Position numbers and translations under genes: made by a program. DNA of 64,000 nucleotides, taken from Alphaproteobacteria bacterium (GTDB taxonomy: Bacteria; Pseudomonadota; Alphaproteobacteria; Ferrovibrionales; Ferrovibrionaceae). This document shows positions 3,496 to 14,330 of this stretch, piece by piece (positions within the stretch are counted from its first letter, which is position 1; each line of letters opens with the position of its first letter). Below the pieces are notes generated by a model. The model saw nothing but the letters and a program-made list of their open reading frames with translations, was not told the origin of the DNA and did no database searches. The stretch lies in NCBI GenBank assembly GCA_947473805.1, contig CANJGB010000021.1, forward strand, positions 1 through 64,000, in the 5' to 3' direction.

Positions 3496-4032
3496 ATGAC
3501 AATTCTATTCGATCAGCAGGTGACCGAGATGACGCCCTCCCTGCGGGCATTCGCCTTTTCCCGTACCCGCCATATCTAGGACGCCGAAGATCTCACGCAG
3601 GACACCGTGACGCGTGCGCTTTCCTGCCGGGAGCAGTTTCAGTCCGGCTCAAATCTCAAGGCCTGGATCTTTACGATCATGCGCAACCTGCACATCGATA
3701 TGGTGCGCCGGCGCAAGCGTGAAGCTGTAGCCGATATGGATGAAAGCGATATCCGGGACCTGCGTGTCATCGGGCCAAGCCAGTTCGACCACCTTCTGCT
3801 GGGCGAACTGGCTGTCGCCATGGATCATCTGCTGGCTTCGCAGCGTGAAGCGCTGATGCTGGTCGTGGCCAACGGGCTGTCCTACGAAGAGGCGGCAGCG
3901 GTCTGCCAATGCCCGGTTGGCACGATCCGCAGCCGCATAGCGCGCGGTCGTGCGTTTCTCGAAAACGCGATGCTGGGGAAAGTTCGATCCAAGGGCGCCG
4001 CGCCCCGCCTGGAGCAACGGGCTGAGGTTTAG
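3496..4032 (+). pseudogene. ECF (EcfG-like) sigma factor with in-frame amber stop
   Basis: From ATG 3496 the frame reads MTILFDQQVTEMTPSLRAF, matching the start of small ECF sigma factors, then meets TAG at 3577-3579 (codon 28), and continues without break as DAEDLTQDTVTRALSCREQF, the conserved region 2. Region 4 is intact (LSYEEAAAVCQCPVGTIRSR). The full reading is 178 codons, the usual length of EcfG-type general stress sigma factors. Only a GTG at 3607 could start the downstream part, and this would lose most of region 2. It is therefore inactive, read through, or miscalled. The Crp/Fnr gene follows after 55 bases. Confidence 0.75.
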
Positions 4033-4087
4033 AGCCAAAAGGTCGTTATATGTGACGGCGCCCTGCCACCTGCGACGGGAGCTGCTC

Positions 4088-4849
4088 TTGGACAACCGAA
4101 TCCCTGCGGAAACTCAGCAAAACCGCTTTCTTTCGCTGCTGTCGAAAGATGATTTCGAAAGCCTGAGCAGCCATCTCAGCGCCGTCCCGCTGGACTACCG
4201 GCTATCCCTCTACGAGGCGGACCAGACGATCGAGTACGTCTATTTCCTTGAGTCTGGCGTCGCGTCGGTGGTCACGACAATGAAGGACGGGCGGGCGGCT
4301 GAGGTTGGCACGATCGGCAACGAAGGACTGGTCGGACTGCCGATTCTTCTGGGAGACACCTGTACAGGGACCAGCGTCTACATCCAGGTCCCGGGCAAGG
4401 GCCACCGCATGTCCGCCAGCAGCTTCCGTTCCGCCCTGGAGCGGCACCCCGCGATGAAGGTTCATCTGCTGCACTACGCCCACGTCTTTATGAATCAGAT
4501 CTCGCAGTCAGCCGCCTGCAACCTGTTCCACACGCTTGAGCAGCGGTGCTGCCGATGGCTTCTGATGACGGGGGACCGCATGACATCCGACGAGTTTCTG
4601 CTGACCCAGGAATTTCTCGCCATGATGCTTGGCGTACGGCGCGCCGGTGTCACGGTTGCGGCGGGTGCGTTGCAAAGCCGCGGCCTGATTACCTATCAGC
4701 GCGGCCACGTCAAAATCCTCGACCGCCCCGGGCTGGAAGCCCAATCCTGCGAATGTTATGACGTCACACGGCGCGAGTTTGACGAACTGCTCGGAAAAGA
4801 GAGAAAAAAGCCGCAAATTTCCTACCGACCGATGCCTATCGCGTCGTAG
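4088..4849 (+). CDS. Crp/Fnr-family transcriptional regulator
   Basis: A cyclic-nucleotide-binding-like N-terminal domain (VYFLESGVASVVTTMKDGRA, residues about 44-63) is followed by a Crp-type winged helix (LLTQEFLAMMLGVRRAGVTV). I start it at TTG 4088, with GGGAG 7 bases upstream, giving 253 residues and an N-terminus (MDNRIPAETQQNRFLSLL) typical of the family; a longer frame begins at 3950 inside the sigma gene. No N-terminal cysteine cluster is present, so it is not an Fe-S oxygen sensor, and the recognition helix lacks the E-x-x-S-R set used to read TTGAT. The ligand is unknown. Confidence 0.8.
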   Translation: MDNRIPAETQQNRFLSLLSKDDFESLSSHLSAVPLDYRLSLYEADQTIEYVYFLESGVASVVTTMKDGRAAEVGTIGNEGLVGLPILLGDTCTGTSVYIQVPGKGHRMSASSFRSALERHPAMKVHLLHYAHVFMNQISQSAACNLFHTLEQRCCRWLLMTGDRMTSDEFLLTQEFLAMMLGVRRAGVTVAAGALQSRGLITYQRGHVKILDRPGLEAQSCECYDVTRREFDELLGKERKKPQISYRPMPIAS

Positions 4850-4857
4850 CGGAGCGC

Positions 4858-5070
4858 CTACTGCGCCAGCCGGTTCTGAAACATCGTCACGTCAGCCTCA
4901 CGCCGAAACCGGAATGACATCTCCGGCGGCGAGCGCAGGGTATCGACGCACTGCAAGTGGTCGATGCCCGCCAGCGCCGCCTCGATGCGCTCCAGGCGAT
5001 GCGGCGCCAGCGGCTGTCCGACATGGACGATGGCCGGATATTCCAGCAGCAGGGTTCGTGGGCTGGCCAT
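4858..5070 (-). CDS. Small protein of unknown function, paralog of the upstream gene
   Basis: A 70-residue protein (start MASPRTLLLEYPAIVHVG), chosen at ATG 5070, seven bases after the stop of the upstream gene with GAGCTGAG before it. It shares a spaced pattern with the upstream product: EYP near the start, Pro, a central DH pair, then a C-terminal FRFRREAD..MF segment. The shared ends suggest tandem duplication and divergence. Predicted soluble alpha/beta; no family recognised. Its stop lies 8 bases from the end of the convergent Crp/Fnr gene. Confidence 0.65.
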   Translation of the reverse strand: MASPRTLLLEYPAIVHVGQPLAPHRLERIEAALAGIDHLQCVDTLRSPPEMSFRFRREADVTMFQNRLAQ

Positions 5071-5077
5071 GCTCAGC

Positions 5078-5320
5078 TCACGCCGGCAGGTGTGCCCGGC
5101 CGACATTCTGCCGGAACATCTCGGCATCGCCCTCGGTGCGGAAGCGATAGGCGACCCAGTCCAGGTCCTCGTGCCGCCGGTCATGCACGTGGTCCACGGT
5201 CAGCAGCGCCACCTGCAAAGCGTTGTACTGCCGCTCGGTGAAACCTGCGGGCGGGACGCTGATTTCGACCCGAACCGGGTATTCACGGCGCAGCAGCGAG
5301 CGGCGATCCAGCATGAACAT
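5078..5320 (-). CDS. Small protein of unknown function, first of a tandem pair
   Basis: An 80-residue protein (MFMLDRRSLLRREYPVRVEI). GAGGAGGAC lies 6 bases before the ATG, a strong ribosome binding site. The body carries REYPVRVEISVP, DHVHDRRHEDLDWVAY and YRFRTEGDAEMFRQNVG; the last resembles the end of the downstream protein. It is rich in Arg, His and Asp, with no signal peptide or membrane segment. Together with the next gene it forms a two-gene operon. Function not recognised. Confidence 0.65.
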   Translation of the reverse strand: MFMLDRRSLLRREYPVRVEISVPPAGFTERQYNALQVALLTVDHVHDRRHEDLDWVAYRFRTEGDAEMFRQNVGRAHLPA

Positions 5321-5450
5321 AGGACTGTCCTCCTCGAAAACTCGATGAGAACAAAACTAGAACCAATGTCCCTGACCTGTCAACTCCCCCTGTTTTGCAC
5401 CGCTTTTGTCTTCACGGCCCGAGCAGCCTGGCCGCCTTGAGTCGCGAAAG

Positions 5451-9518: not shown

Positions 9519-10934
9519 ATGGCTGCTCGACCGCCGACCGCCAAACCCGCTTTGCTCTGGTATCGCCGCGATCTGCGCGTGGCCGACAATCCGGCGCTGG
9601 ATGCGGCCGTCCGGTCGGGCCGTCCGGTCGTGCCGGTCTACATCCTGGACGACACCGAAGGCGCCGCCGGCCGCTGGTGGCTGCACCACAGCCTCGCCGC
9701 ACTATCGGGCGATCTGCGCCGGCTGGGTGCGCCGCTGGTTCTCCGGCGTGGAGGCGCGCAGAAAGAACTGCTGCGGCTCATCACCGAAACAGGCGCCGAA
9801 GCGGTGTACTGGAACCGCGAATACACGCCCGCCGCCATCACGCGCGACACCACGCTGAAAGAGGCGCTGAAACAGCGCGGCATCACCGCAGAGTCCTTCA
9901 ACGCCGCGCTGTTGCATGAACCCTGGACGGTGAAGACCGGCGGCGGTACGCCGTTCAAGGTGTTCACCCCGTTCTGGAACGCGATCCGCGCCAGGGGCGA
10001 GCCGACGCCGACACTGCCTGCGCCGAAATCCATCCCCGGCCATGACATCGCCGGCGACACGCTCGACGACTGGAACCTGTTGCCGTCAAAGCCCGACTGG
10101 GCAGCGGGCTTCCGTGAAAACTGGCGGCCCGGCGAGACCAGCGCGCTGGCGCGGCTGGACGACTTCCTGTCCCACGAGCTGCTGGGCTATGCCGCGAAAC
10201 GCGACATACCGGCTCTGCCCGCCACCTCGCGCCTGTCGCCGTACTTGCACTATGGCGAGATCGGGCCCCGCCAGGTGTGGCGTGCGGCAACGCTCCGCGC
10301 CGCGACCCATCCCGAACTCGCCAGCGACGCCGGCAAGTTCCTGTCCGAACTGGCATGGCGCGAATTCTCGTGGCACCTGCTGTTCAGCGAACCTGAACTA
10401 CCGGCGAACAACCTCAGGCCGAATTTCGACGCCTTCCCCTGGGCACAGGATGCGAAAGCGCTCAAAGCCTGGCAGCTAGGTCGAACCGGCTACCCCATCG
10501 TGGATGCCGGCATGCGCGAACTCTGGCATACTGGCTGGGTCCACAACCGAGTTCGAATGATCGTCGCCTCGTTTCTGGTCAAACATCTCCTGATCCACTG
10601 GCGCGAGGGGGCCGCCTGGTTCATGGACACGCTTGTAGACGCGGACCTGGCCAATAACAGCGCCAGCTGGCAGTGGGTTGCCGGCTGTGGCGCCGACGCC
10701 GCGCCTTATTTCCGCATTTTCAACCCCGTGCTGCAGGGGCAGAAGTTCGACGCGCAGGGGACCTACGTGCGCCGCTGGATACCGGAATTGACTGCCGTGC
10801 CCGACAAGTGGGTGCACCAGCCCTGGGCGGCCCCACAACCGCCCGGAGGCTATCCCGCCCCCATCGTCGATCATCGCTTTGCGCGCGACCGTGCGCTGAC
10901 CGCCTTCGCCAGCATCGGACGCGCCGCCGCATGA
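9519..10934 (+). CDS. phrB: Deoxyribodipyrimidine photolyase (class I CPD)
   Basis: 471 residues. The N-terminal antenna-binding Rossmann domain starts at LLWYRRDLRVADNPALDAAV. The C-terminal FAD domain has SRLSPYLHYGEIGPRQVW, WREFSWHLLF, GRTGYPIVDAGMRELWHTGW and ANNSASWQWVAGCGADAAPY, all hallmarks of class I cyclobutane pyrimidine dimer photolyases, which repair UV lesions using blue light. It is first in a six-gene operon; its stop overlaps the next start (ATGA). Length is normal. A photolyase rather than a cryptochrome is favoured by the conserved W/N active-site segment. Confidence 0.93.
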   Translation: MAARPPTAKPALLWYRRDLRVADNPALDAAVRSGRPVVPVYILDDTEGAAGRWWLHHSLAALSGDLRRLGAPLVLRRGGAQKELLRLITETGAEAVYWNREYTPAAITRDTTLKEALKQRGITAESFNAALLHEPWTVKTGGGTPFKVFTPFWNAIRARGEPTPTLPAPKSIPGHDIAGDTLDDWNLLPSKPDWAAGFRENWRPGETSALARLDDFLSHELLGYAAKRDIPALPATSRLSPYLHYGEIGPRQVWRAATLRAATHPELASDAGKFLSELAWREFSWHLLFSEPELPANNLRPNFDAFPWAQDAKALKAWQLGRTGYPIVDAGMRELWHTGWVHNRVRMIVASFLVKHLLIHWREGAAWFMDTLVDADLANNSASWQWVAGCGADAAPYFRIFNPVLQGQKFDAQGTYVRRWIPELTAVPDKWVHQPWAAPQPPGGYPAPIVDHRFARDRALTAFASIGRAAA

Positions 10935-12277
10935 ACCAGCAGGCACCTTTGAAATCCGGCCGCGTTGCCGTCGTCGGCAGCGGCATATCGGGCCTCGCCT
11001 GCGCGTGGCTATTGCAGCAGCGCTATGACGTCACGCTGTTCGAACGCGAAGGTCGCCTCGGCGGTCACAGCAACACCGCCGTCGCCGACTACGACGGCCA
11101 CGCCATGCCGGTCGATACGGGCTTCATCGTCTTCAACGCGCCGAACTACCCGAACCTGCTGGGCCTGTTCGCAGAGCTCGGCGTCGCCACCGAGAACAGC
11201 GACATGTCGTTCGCCGTCAGCGTCGGCAACGGCGCCCTGGAATGGTCGGGCTCCACAATCGCCACCCTGTTCGCGCAGAAGCGCAACCTGCTCAGCCCGC
11301 GCTTCCACCGCATGTGGCTCGACATCCTGCGCTTCAACAAGGAGGCGCCGCGCGACTGGGCCGCCGGCCGGCTGGATGGCAAAAGCCTGGGCGACTACAT
11401 AGATGCCGGCCGCTATTCCGAAACCTTCCGTCTGGACTACCTGCTGCCCATGGGTGCGGCGATCTGGTCGTCACCCATGGCCGACATGCTGGCCTTCCCG
11501 GCACGCACCTTTGTCCGCTTCTTCATGAACCACGGTCTGCTCAGCGTGAACGACCGGCCGCAATGGCAGACGGTCAGTGGCGGCAGCCGCGAATATGTCC
11601 GCCGCATTGGCGAGCGCCTGGGCAACGCCATCCGCCTGAACGCGCCGGTGGTCGAGGTGCGCCGCGCTGCCCAGGGCGCGACGGTGCGCACCGCCGACGG
11701 CACGACGGAACGCTTCGACCACGTTGTCCTCGCCGCGCACGGCGACCAGTCCCTGGCCATGCTGAAGGACGTCGACGCGGAGGAACGCGAGATACTCTCC
11801 GGCTTCCGCTTCCAGCCCAACCGCGCGATCCTGCATCGCGATGCCAATCTGATGCCGAAGCGCCGCGGCGTCTGGGCCAGCTGGAATTATCTCAGCGAAC
11901 CGCGCCGCGATCTGCAGCGCCGTGTCGGCCTGACCTACTGGATGAACCGGCTGCAGAACCTCGATCCCGCACGTCCGCTCTTTGTTACGCTCAATCCGCT
12001 GGAACCGCCGAACCCGAAGCTCGTCTTCGCCAGTTTCGACTACGACCATCCGTTGTTCGACGCCACCGCCATTGCGATGCAGCGCCGCCTGCCCGCCATC
12101 CAGGGCCGCGGCGGCATCTGGTATGCCGGCGCCTGGAGCGGCTACGGCTTCCACGAGGATGGCCTCTCCAGTGGCATCGCGGTGGCAGAGGCTCTCGGCG
12201 CCAAACGTCCCTGGAAGGCTCAAGGTAACAGCGACATCCACCCCATGCCGGCTCTGAAGCCCGTGGTCCCCGCATGA
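10931..12277 (+). CDS. FAD-dependent amine oxidase-like protein (COG2907)
   Basis: 448 residues. The dinucleotide-binding motif is VAVVGSGISGLACAWLLQQ near residue 12, followed by ERxGRLGGHSNT. The C-terminus has the FAD-closing segment WYAGAWSGYGFHEDGLSSGI. This NAD(P)-binding, FAD-containing family is regularly encoded between photolyase, DUF1365 and cyclopropane fatty acid synthase genes, and is suspected to modify membrane fatty acids (for example toward furan fatty acids) under singlet oxygen. Start and stop both overlap neighbours by four bases, showing translational coupling. Confidence 0.87.
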   Translation: MNQQAPLKSGRVAVVGSGISGLACAWLLQQRYDVTLFEREGRLGGHSNTAVADYDGHAMPVDTGFIVFNAPNYPNLLGLFAELGVATENSDMSFAVSVGNGALEWSGSTIATLFAQKRNLLSPRFHRMWLDILRFNKEAPRDWAAGRLDGKSLGDYIDAGRYSETFRLDYLLPMGAAIWSSPMADMLAFPARTFVRFFMNHGLLSVNDRPQWQTVSGGSREYVRRIGERLGNAIRLNAPVVEVRRAAQGATVRTADGTTERFDHVVLAAHGDQSLAMLKDVDAEEREILSGFRFQPNRAILHRDANLMPKRRGVWASWNYLSEPRRDLQRRVGLTYWMNRLQNLDPARPLFVTLNPLEPPNPKLVFASFDYDHPLFDATAIAMQRRLPAIQGRGGIWYAGAWSGYGFHEDGLSSGIAVAEALGAKRPWKAQGNSDIHPMPALKPVVPA

Positions 12278-13032
12278 GCGACGCGGCAATCTATTTCGGC
12301 GAGGTCATGCACCGGCGCTATCGCCCCGTCGGGCACCGCTTCGTCTATCGCGTCTTTTCAATCTTGCTCGACATCGACAAGCTGGCGAACATCGCTGCAA
12401 CCACGCGCCTGTTCGGCTACAACCGGCCACGCATCTTCAGCTTCCACGACCGCGATCACGGCGCGCGCGACGGGTCGGCCCTGCGCCCCTGGGTGGAGGC
12501 CAGGCTGGCGGAGAGCGGCATGGCAAAGCCGGCCCGTATCGACCTGCTCTGCTTCCCGCGCCTGTTCGGCTTCGTGTTCAATCCGCTCAGCATCTATTAC
12601 TGCGCCGACGCTGCCGGCCGCCTCTACGCCATCCTGTACGAAGTGAAGAATACCTTCGGTGGCCAGCACCCCTATGTGCTGCCGGTCGATCCGAACCGCG
12701 CGGCCGACACACCGATCATCCAGCACACCGACAAGAACTTCTATGTCTCGCCCTTCATCGACATGACGGCGACCTATCGCTTTCGCCTGCTGCCGCCGGG
12801 CGAAAAGCTGTCGGTGGCGATCATCGAACATGTGCCCGAGGGACGGCAGCTTATCGCTACGCAGACCGGCCGCCGCCGCGCCTTTACCGACGCTGTGCTG
12901 CTGCGCGCGCTGTTCGCCTATCCGCTGATGACACTCAAGGTCGTGGCGGGCATTCACTGGCAAGCCCTGCGCCTGTGGCTCAAGGGCGCGACCTACTTCC
13001 GGCAACCGCCGGCGCCAAAGAAATCAACCTAG
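12274..13032 (+). CDS. DUF1365 family protein
   Basis: 252 residues, beginning MSDAAIYFGEVMHRRYRPVG and containing LCFPRLFGFVFNPLSIYYCA and VKNTFGGQHPYVLP, the signature segments of DUF1365. The function is not established, but it is nearly always encoded between an FAD oxidoreductase and a cyclopropane fatty acid synthase, as here, suggesting a step in fatty acyl chain modification. The ATGA overlap with the preceding gene indicates coupled translation; the Cfa gene follows 20 bases later. Confidence 0.87.
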   Translation: MSDAAIYFGEVMHRRYRPVGHRFVYRVFSILLDIDKLANIAATTRLFGYNRPRIFSFHDRDHGARDGSALRPWVEARLAESGMAKPARIDLLCFPRLFGFVFNPLSIYYCADAAGRLYAILYEVKNTFGGQHPYVLPVDPNRAADTPIIQHTDKNFYVSPFIDMTATYRFRLLPPGEKLSVAIIEHVPEGRQLIATQTGRRRAFTDAVLLRALFAYPLMTLKVVAGIHWQALRLWLKGATYFRQPPAPKKST

Positions 13033-13052
13033 ACGGATCGAGGAGTGCGACC

Positions 13053-14330
13053 ATGTCGATGATGACCGAACCTGAATTCACCGCCGGCCGCGCCGAGGGC
13101 CAGCCTTCCGAACAGCGCGTGATCGAACTGCACAGCGCGCGCGATTCCTGGTCCATCCCCAATATCGGCAACTGGACCCGCCTGATGCTGTCGGTCGCCC
13201 CCAGTATCGAGAAGGGCAAGCTGACCATCGTTCTTCCTGATGGTCGCGCCGTGCGTTCAGGCAGCAAGCCGGGCCGCGATGGCACCATGGTCATGCGCAA
13301 CGAGCGCGTGGCGAAGCGCCTGCTGACCGGCGGCAGCCTCAGCTTCGCGGAATCCTACATGGACGGCGACTGGGTCAGTCCCGACATCGGCGCCCTGACC
13401 GAATGGGCCTGCCAGAACGAAGCCCTCGACGACACGCTGGAGGGCAAGCTGTGGTTCCGCGTGCTGCGCCGCGCCCTGTTCATGCTGGCGCGCAACAGCA
13501 AGCGCGGCAGCCGGCGCAACATCGCCTACCACTACGACCTCGGCAATTCGTTCTATGCCCAATGGCTCGATCCGGGCATGACCTATTCGTCAGCCTCGTA
13601 CGAGCATGCCGGCCAGTCGTTGCAAGTTGCGCAGGACAACAAATTCCGCCGCCTGCTGGACGTCGTCAATCCCAAGCCCGGCCAGAAGATCCTCGAGATC
13701 GGCTGCGGCTGGGGCGGCTTCGCCTGTTTCGCCGCGCGCGAACGCGATGTCCAGGTACACGGCATCACCATCAGCCGCGAGCAGTTCGACTATGCGCAGA
13801 AGCGCGCCTTCGAGGCCGGCCTGGCCGACAAGGTCACCTTCGAGATGCGCGACTATCGCGACGTGACCGGCGCCTATGACGGCATCGTCTCCATCGAGAT
13901 GTTCGAGGCGGTGGGCGAGGCTTATTGGCCGACCTATTTCAACAAGATCAACCAGTGCCTGAAGCCCGAGGGGCGCGCCGCCCTGCAGCTCATCGCCATC
14001 GCCGACAAGTATTTCGAGGCCTATCGCAGCTCGATGGACTTCATCCAGAAGTACATCTTTCCGGGCGGCATGCTGCCCTCACCCAGCGTCTTCCGGCGCG
14101 AGGCCGGCAAATCGGGACTGGTGGTCGAGGACGAGTATTTCTTCCGCAACAACTATGCCGACACGCTGCTGGAATGGCGCAAGAAGTTCATGGCGGCCTG
14201 GCCCGTTATCGAGCCGATGGGCTTCGACGACCGCTTCCGCCGCATGTGGGAATATTACCTGGCCTATTGCGAAGGCGGCTTCCGCGGCGGCACTATCGAC
14301 GTGATGCAGGTCGCGCTCCGCCACCGCTAG
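13053..14330 (+). CDS. cfa: Cyclopropane-fatty-acyl-phospholipid synthase family protein
   Basis: 425 residues. An N-terminal SCP2-like part precedes the SAM methyltransferase core with ILEIGCGWGGFACFAARE and YEHAGQSLQVAQDNKFRRLL; the substrate region has AYHYDLGNSFYAQWLDPGMT. The enzyme class transfers a methylene (or methyl) from S-adenosylmethionine to double bonds of membrane phospholipids. Start ATG 13053 has GAGGAG upstream. Its position after DUF1365 and the FAD protein fits membrane lipid protection in light or oxidative stress. It may be a methyltransferase paralog (UfaM-like) rather than a true Cfa. Confidence 0.88.
   Translation: MSMMTEPEFTAGRAEGQPSEQRVIELHSARDSWSIPNIGNWTRLMLSVAPSIEKGKLTIVLPDGRAVRSGSKPGRDGTMVMRNERVAKRLLTGGSLSFAESYMDGDWVSPDIGALTEWACQNEALDDTLEGKLWFRVLRRALFMLARNSKRGSRRNIAYHYDLGNSFYAQWLDPGMTYSSASYEHAGQSLQVAQDNKFRRLLDVVNPKPGQKILEIGCGWGGFACFAARERDVQVHGITISREQFDYAQKRAFEAGLADKVTFEMRDYRDVTGAYDGIVSIEMFEAVGEAYWPTYFNKINQCLKPEGRAALQLIAIADKYFEAYRSSMDFIQKYIFPGGMLPSPSVFRREAGKSGLVVEDEYFFRNNYADTLLEWRKKFMAAWPVIEPMGFDDRFRRMWEYYLAYCEGGFRGGTIDVMQVALRHR

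Follow-up and report, generated by a model that had tools for sequence, protein, structure and literature searches.

Two small tandem genes

The window analysed here is a stretch of 64,000 nt from an alphaproteobacterial contig, and it features a tandem pair of small genes, A and B, which raises the question of when two such short proteins are made and what they act on. An earlier note on this DNA described the pair as adjacent paralogues with coupled translation, and took the duplication as a pointer to a two-component complex. Both open reading frames are present as described, on the minus strand, and encode proteins of 80 and 70 amino acids.

5078-5320, minus strand: gene A, 80 aa, ATG start, protein P0002, first of the pair (open reading frame, codon periodicity, ribosome binding site)
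4858-5070, minus strand: gene B, 70 aa, ATG start, protein P0001, 7 nt after gene A (open reading frame, codon periodicity, similarity to A)
5330-5335, minus strand: Shine-Dalgarno sequence GAGGAG of gene A, read from the sequence; also found before gene C

The two reading frames do not overlap, and the 7 nt that separate the stop codon of gene A from the ATG of gene B make translational coupling plausible, as a candidate only. The positional details given earlier also hold: the stop codon of gene B is 8 nt from that of the convergent Crp/Fnr gene (4849), and the strong ribosome binding site of gene A, GAGGAG, is located 10 nt ahead of its ATG. Upstream of the pair, 3607-4849 is occupied by a sigma factor gene and the Crp/Fnr gene. 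Elsewhere in the window, positions 9519-14330 hold a photolyase gene, behind it one for an FAD oxidoreductase-like protein and then others, in an arrangement that resembles the usual light/photolyase cluster.

The GC content at codon positions 1/2/3 is 0.75/0.40/0.84 in gene A and 0.73/0.44/0.81 in gene B, and both resemble the neighbouring genes. It might be argued that there is no functional pair at all, and that A and B are chance reading frames or that the gene is the antisense reading frame at 4964-5440, which is long (158 aa) and is preferred by a simple gene caller. However, the codon-position GC of the antisense frame is flatter (0.67/0.53/0.72), and this composition speaks against both the antisense frame and an upstream extension of gene B. 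Codon periodicity favours A and B, homologues exist, and the ribosome binding site, promoter and operator are common to gene A and a third paralogue, gene C, all of which makes the absence of a functional pair highly improbable.

The paralogy of A and B is confirmed by a Smith-Waterman score of 66, which none of 20,000 shuffles reached (shuffle maximum 57), and by a pairwise BLASTP E-value of 6e-6. A search of its own genome with A retrieves B at E 0.019, a value to be read with the qualification that E-values for members diverged as far as C and B depend on short proteins. The shared motifs reported earlier, EYP..V, DH and [FY]RFR.E.D..MF, are present in both proteins, but the central DH is confined to the A/B pair and does not extend to the family.

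A LexA box before gene A

Three things escaped the earlier note: a LexA/SOS operator, a third paralogue that carries this operator too, and a dnaE2-linked relative. The operator region of gene A contains the following features.

5349-5363, minus strand: perfect LexA box GTTCTAGTTTTGTTC, GTTC-N7-GTTC, starting 43 nt upstream of the ATG of gene A
5338-5352, minus strand: second, imperfect half-overlapping site GTTC-N7-GTTT with one mismatch, read from the sequence
5378-5383, minus strand: -35-like TTGACA, read from the sequence; common to gene C

The direct repeat GTTC-N7-GTTC has been described as the motif bound by LexA in alphaproteobacteria (PMC3323433). Caulobacter has the same LexA motif, and GTTCttgttatGTTC, with a similarly A+T-rich spacer, is found in two of its promoters (PMC12700426). 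The repeat overlaps the candidate promoter of gene A. The candidate -10 element (CTAGTT/TAGTTT) is poor and would fall within the LexA box, and a consensus promoter scan reported no site before gene A because the -10 matches at 3 of 6 positions only. Within the window the motif occurs four times versus 1.57 expected, and none of the 61 predicted window genes has it within 100 nt upstream, in a gene list that missed the A/B pair.

Genome-wide, there are 102 copies of GTTC-N7-GTTC and 40 of the reversed control. The spacer is G+C-rich in most of the 102 boxes and contains 6 or 7 A/T in nine. The surroundings of 20 of the 102 sites were fetched and read, and judging from these the boxes with G+C spacers may be due to chance. 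Perfect boxes are located 76 nt before lexA (identified by the Pfam LexA DNA-binding and S24 domains), 39 nt before imuA of the same genome, 59 nt before mutM, which encodes a formamidopyrimidine-DNA (Fapy) glycosylase (L120 1138-2015, G000 C37:23228), and 38 nt before a radical-SAM gene. GTTC-N7-GTTC is therefore the LexA box of this organism, and, as predicted from its operator, the A/B pair is very probably under SOS (LexA) regulation.

A third paralogue reached through the operator

The box at C27:28678 precedes a reading frame of 103 aa, gene C (MARPVSLTLLRQRYPHAIRRVEPRDGF...VVEWRFETETAAWRFMNTFGG), which is a solitary copy. Gene C was found by tracing boxes alone and not by protein similarity; it scores 15.2 bits (E 0.0011 per 1,000 sequences) against a family profile from which C and the window proteins had been left out. 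Because C was reached through its operator, the operator and the family indicate each other independently. The upstream regions of A and C have in common the TTGACA element, the GTTC-N7-GTTC box, the stretch TCATCGAGnnTTCGAGGAG and GAGGAG, and the 60-nt regions align with a score of 65, against a best of 45 in 20,000 shuffles. The coding DNA of the two genes gives just a short, weak local match and the proteins are ~27% identical, while the operator and leader are nearly identical. That operator and leader are kept despite the divergence of the proteins indicates, on this sequence comparison, that selection maintains LexA control of A and C.

The wider family

The earlier note knew of no family that fits, and this is borne out by Pfam, NCBIfam and PHROG, which hold no model that matches A or B at E<=10. 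These libraries give no match for C or for the closest relative, P0003, either, and no match was found in a PDB sequence search. A literature search, mostly of open-access papers, found no such small SOS gene in alphaproteobacteria. The profile search proposed earlier revealed that homologues of A and B do exist in other alphaproteobacteria. P0003 is from Ferrovibrio sp. EaCA-1 62 (G012), which like the window belongs to the Ferrovibrionaceae, and it is the one convincing relative found with A alone as the query (score 72, 0 of 20,000 shuffles). Between P0003 and a 91-aa protein of genome G001 the BLASTP E-value is 7e-8.

The G001 protein and natural members from G123 were reached by a bait consensus that was modelled on similar alphaproteobacterial proteins, and these natural members then replaced the composed consensus as baits. 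The match of the consensus to A (E 0.05) was not counted because the consensus was composed after A and P0003 had been seen. With the G001 protein, P0003 and a G123 protein as baits, the searches added members from G073 (E 1e-7), G123 (two), G414 and G415 (two), and partial or broken-looking members from G170 and G007; close to the G007 relative is the gene of an SOS-associated peptidase, SRAP. A profile of seven members, all from outside the window, places gene A first among all window reading frames at E 3.8e-5, with the runner-up at 0.85. A later profile that was built without G001 and G123 recovers the G001 and G123 members at E 2e-8 and 7e-8, respectively. The members follow the pattern [FY]P..V-[ED]-[IV]-.-.-P-.-.-G-[FL] ... 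I..WL ... [VM]-.-.-.-F-.-.-E/D-.-.-A-.-.-F...[FG]. Their occurrence is sporadic: 2 of 18 genomes of the taxonomic family with the first profile, and 10 of 385 genomes of the class with the second at E<=0.01, chance hits among them. Most relatives are single genes. By its sequences, the family appears as an unnamed, fast-diverging group of small soluble alphaproteobacterial proteins. Weak genome matches at L050, L051 and L057-L061 were rejected on inspection as due to chance, and what matched in four viral loci was solely GWLEKHG, a short stretch within an unrelated protein.

The G001 relative features a perfect box that starts 29 nt before its ATG, and one G415 copy has a perfect but distal box at -142. 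Within 250 nt upstream, no box is present before the relatives in G123, G414 and G073 or before the other G415 copy (a), and SOS control is therefore not universal in the family. The only conserved neighbour across the relatives is a GNAT-like gene within the G123 genus, and it is not found near A and B. In the two species concerned (L068 6745-7590 and L078 7212-8099) this acetyltransferase gene is divergent from the family member and slightly overlaps it.

The surroundings of several relatives would fit a different account, in which the family is cargo of mobile elements, with LexA timing transfer or host interference and with no function in repair. Relatives adjoin an integrase, ArdC, a TnpB-like gene, transposases and TniQ, and one family copy occurs in both G123 and G414 with 99.7% identity over 2.6 kb, which implies recent transfer. 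However, A/B and C are located among ordinary chromosomal genes, and plasmid records, phage records and viral contigs contain no family member, so that cargo without a repair function is an unlikely account of the pair. The near-identical stretch in the G414 and G123 species (L074 and L076 1-2559) holds, besides the family member, an ArdC-like antirestriction fragment. At L079 7010-9185 the family member is followed within ~110 nt by the TnpB-like gene, which has a Cas12f1-like TNB domain.

Link to the imuA-imuB-dnaE2 cassette

The start codon of P0003 lies on the dnaE2 stop codon as TGATG, and this dnaE2 is the third gene of an imuA-imuB-dnaE2 set. In the Ferrovibrio cassette the ImuB and DnaE2 domains were identified by Pfam, and imuA by position and sequence only. 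The imuA-imuB-dnaE2 cassette has been described as persistently LexA-regulated (PMC3323433). A and B resemble this SOS mutagenesis cassette (dnaE2 is also called imuC) in their predicted LexA control and through P0003, but unlike P0003 they are outside it: the imuABC genes of their genome are on another contig, C32. A general linkage to dnaE2 was expected and was ruled out, since the small gene is missing downstream at the remaining dnaE2-like loci of the taxonomic family that were examined, C32 included; the linkage is seen at one locus only, that of Ferrovibrio. A TniQ gene is found near the Ferrovibrio cassette, which may therefore sit on a mobile element.

The linked locus also bears on whether A and B could be checkpoint proteins that are induced in the SOS response and delay division or replication, like SulA or SidA. 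Division inhibitors are small, LexA-controlled, dispensable and fast-evolving; A and B share these traits, their LexA control being predicted, and the operator is common to A and C. Unlike SidA, however, neither protein features a membrane segment (average hydropathy -0.55 for A and -0.17 for B), and the fusion-like coupling to dnaE2 in Ferrovibrio favours mutagenesis instead. A checkpoint protein of this kind is quite improbable.

Predicted fold

The earlier proposal to predict the structure of the single proteins leads, for gene A, to a common arrangement only. An AlphaFold2 model of A, made with two relatives (3 sequences), has a mean pLDDT of 81 and a pTM of 0.66. It features a helix at 6-13, a strand at 16-21, a helix at 29-40, strands at 44-47 and 55-60, and a helix at 63-75, from which A is predicted to adopt a beta-alpha-beta-beta-alpha, ferredoxin-like fold. 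The model of P0003 has the same order of elements with lower confidence (pLDDT 65). Foldseek gave no significant match, with best E-values of 0.06 against the PDB and 0.018 against viral structures. With VIA-align, the best match of A was the ACT domain of TyrA (5v0s; Z 6.8, 62 residues, 2.4 Å), and P0003 matched Pcc1 of KEOPS with a Z of 6.6 (66 residues, 2.3 Å; best Z 7.0). Such Z values are common for the ferredoxin-like arrangement, and no functional inference was drawn from them. A and P0003 are like the ferredoxin-like and ACT-like domains (ACT of TyrA, EF-G domain III, Pcc1) in predicted fold and unlike them in showing no sequence similarity. Pcc1 and Pcc2 are small paralogues of this arrangement that are able to form heterodimers.

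The order of elements invites comparison with the DinI-like modulators, which are small proteins induced in the SOS response; they bind the RecA filament and modulate LexA cleavage or recombination. E. coli DinI has the order beta-alpha-beta-beta-alpha, the same as predicted for A, and the two proteins are also alike in size (80 vs 81 aa) and in SOS control, which for A is predicted. However, the Pfam DinI model (PF06183) matches neither A nor B at E<=10, while the DinI positive control is found at E 2e-29, and profile-profile comparison with DinI gives nothing. The acidic C-terminal helix of DinI mimics DNA; the last helix in A and B has no acidic ridge, the pI values are 6.9 for A and 6.8 for B, and P0003, the G001 protein and G123a are basic (9-10). 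DinI was absent among the matches listed in the fold search, which is uninformative either way. A DinI-like mode of action for A and B, for which only size, regulation and order of elements speak, is therefore improbable.

Proposed role in the DNA-damage response

Three features assign the pair to the DNA-damage response: its LexA operator, the recurrence of that operator before the third paralogue, and the relative linked to dnaE2. From these sequence features, A and B probably form an operon that is repressed by LexA and encodes two small accessory proteins of that response. A promoter covered by LexA is derepressed once RecA bound to single-stranded DNA triggers the self-cleavage of LexA. 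In the undamaged cell, LexA at GTTC-N7-GTTC would cover the A/B promoter; after damage, RecA-stimulated cleavage of LexA would free it, and A and B would be made together, with C made separately. The products of A, B and C would be small soluble binding proteins that serve as accessory factors by binding some component of the damage response.

That the proteins act in damage tolerance or in a checkpoint is rather likely. The likeliest target would be the ImuA-ImuB-DnaE2 translesion machinery or its polymerase, which we propose tentatively, and RecA filaments are perhaps the next likeliest after ImuB/DnaE2. The known SOS core of alphaproteobacteria is small and is centred on imuA-imuB-dnaE2. 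A bolder proposal, which we regard as doubtful, is that A, B, C and their relatives are new SOS-induced accessory subunits, a fourth component of the ImuA-ImuB-DnaE2 mutasome that controls error-prone synthesis in alphaproteobacteria. If true, this LexA-controlled small-protein family would mean an additional, as yet undescribed level of damage-induced mutagenesis. The family is notable for several paralogues in one genome and for one relative that is translationally joined to dnaE2, and a pair of unknown genes now has a predicted inducing condition.

In the predicted fold, A and B may pair via the exposed edge strands of the three-stranded sheet. The duplication itself is weakened as a pointer to a heterodimer because gene C is solitary and most relatives are single genes, and because the operator, gene C and the dnaE2-linked relative already place the pair in the damage response.

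Other genes with a LexA box

In this genome mutM, too, appears from its upstream sequence to be under a LexA box. At L116 2001-3739 (G000 C25:15350 region), a gene for a FitA-like ribbon-helix-helix antitoxin directly precedes one that is comM-like. A perfect LexA box, GTTCTTATTTTGTTC, is found 48 nt upstream, and the two genes are possibly an SOS-controlled comM operon. At L113 515-3699 (G000 C3:89520 region), two divergent genes, one for a 477-aa protein with a peptidoglycan-binding domain and the other for a class I lysyl-tRNA synthetase, have a perfect LexA box, GTTCTATATTTGTTC, between them.
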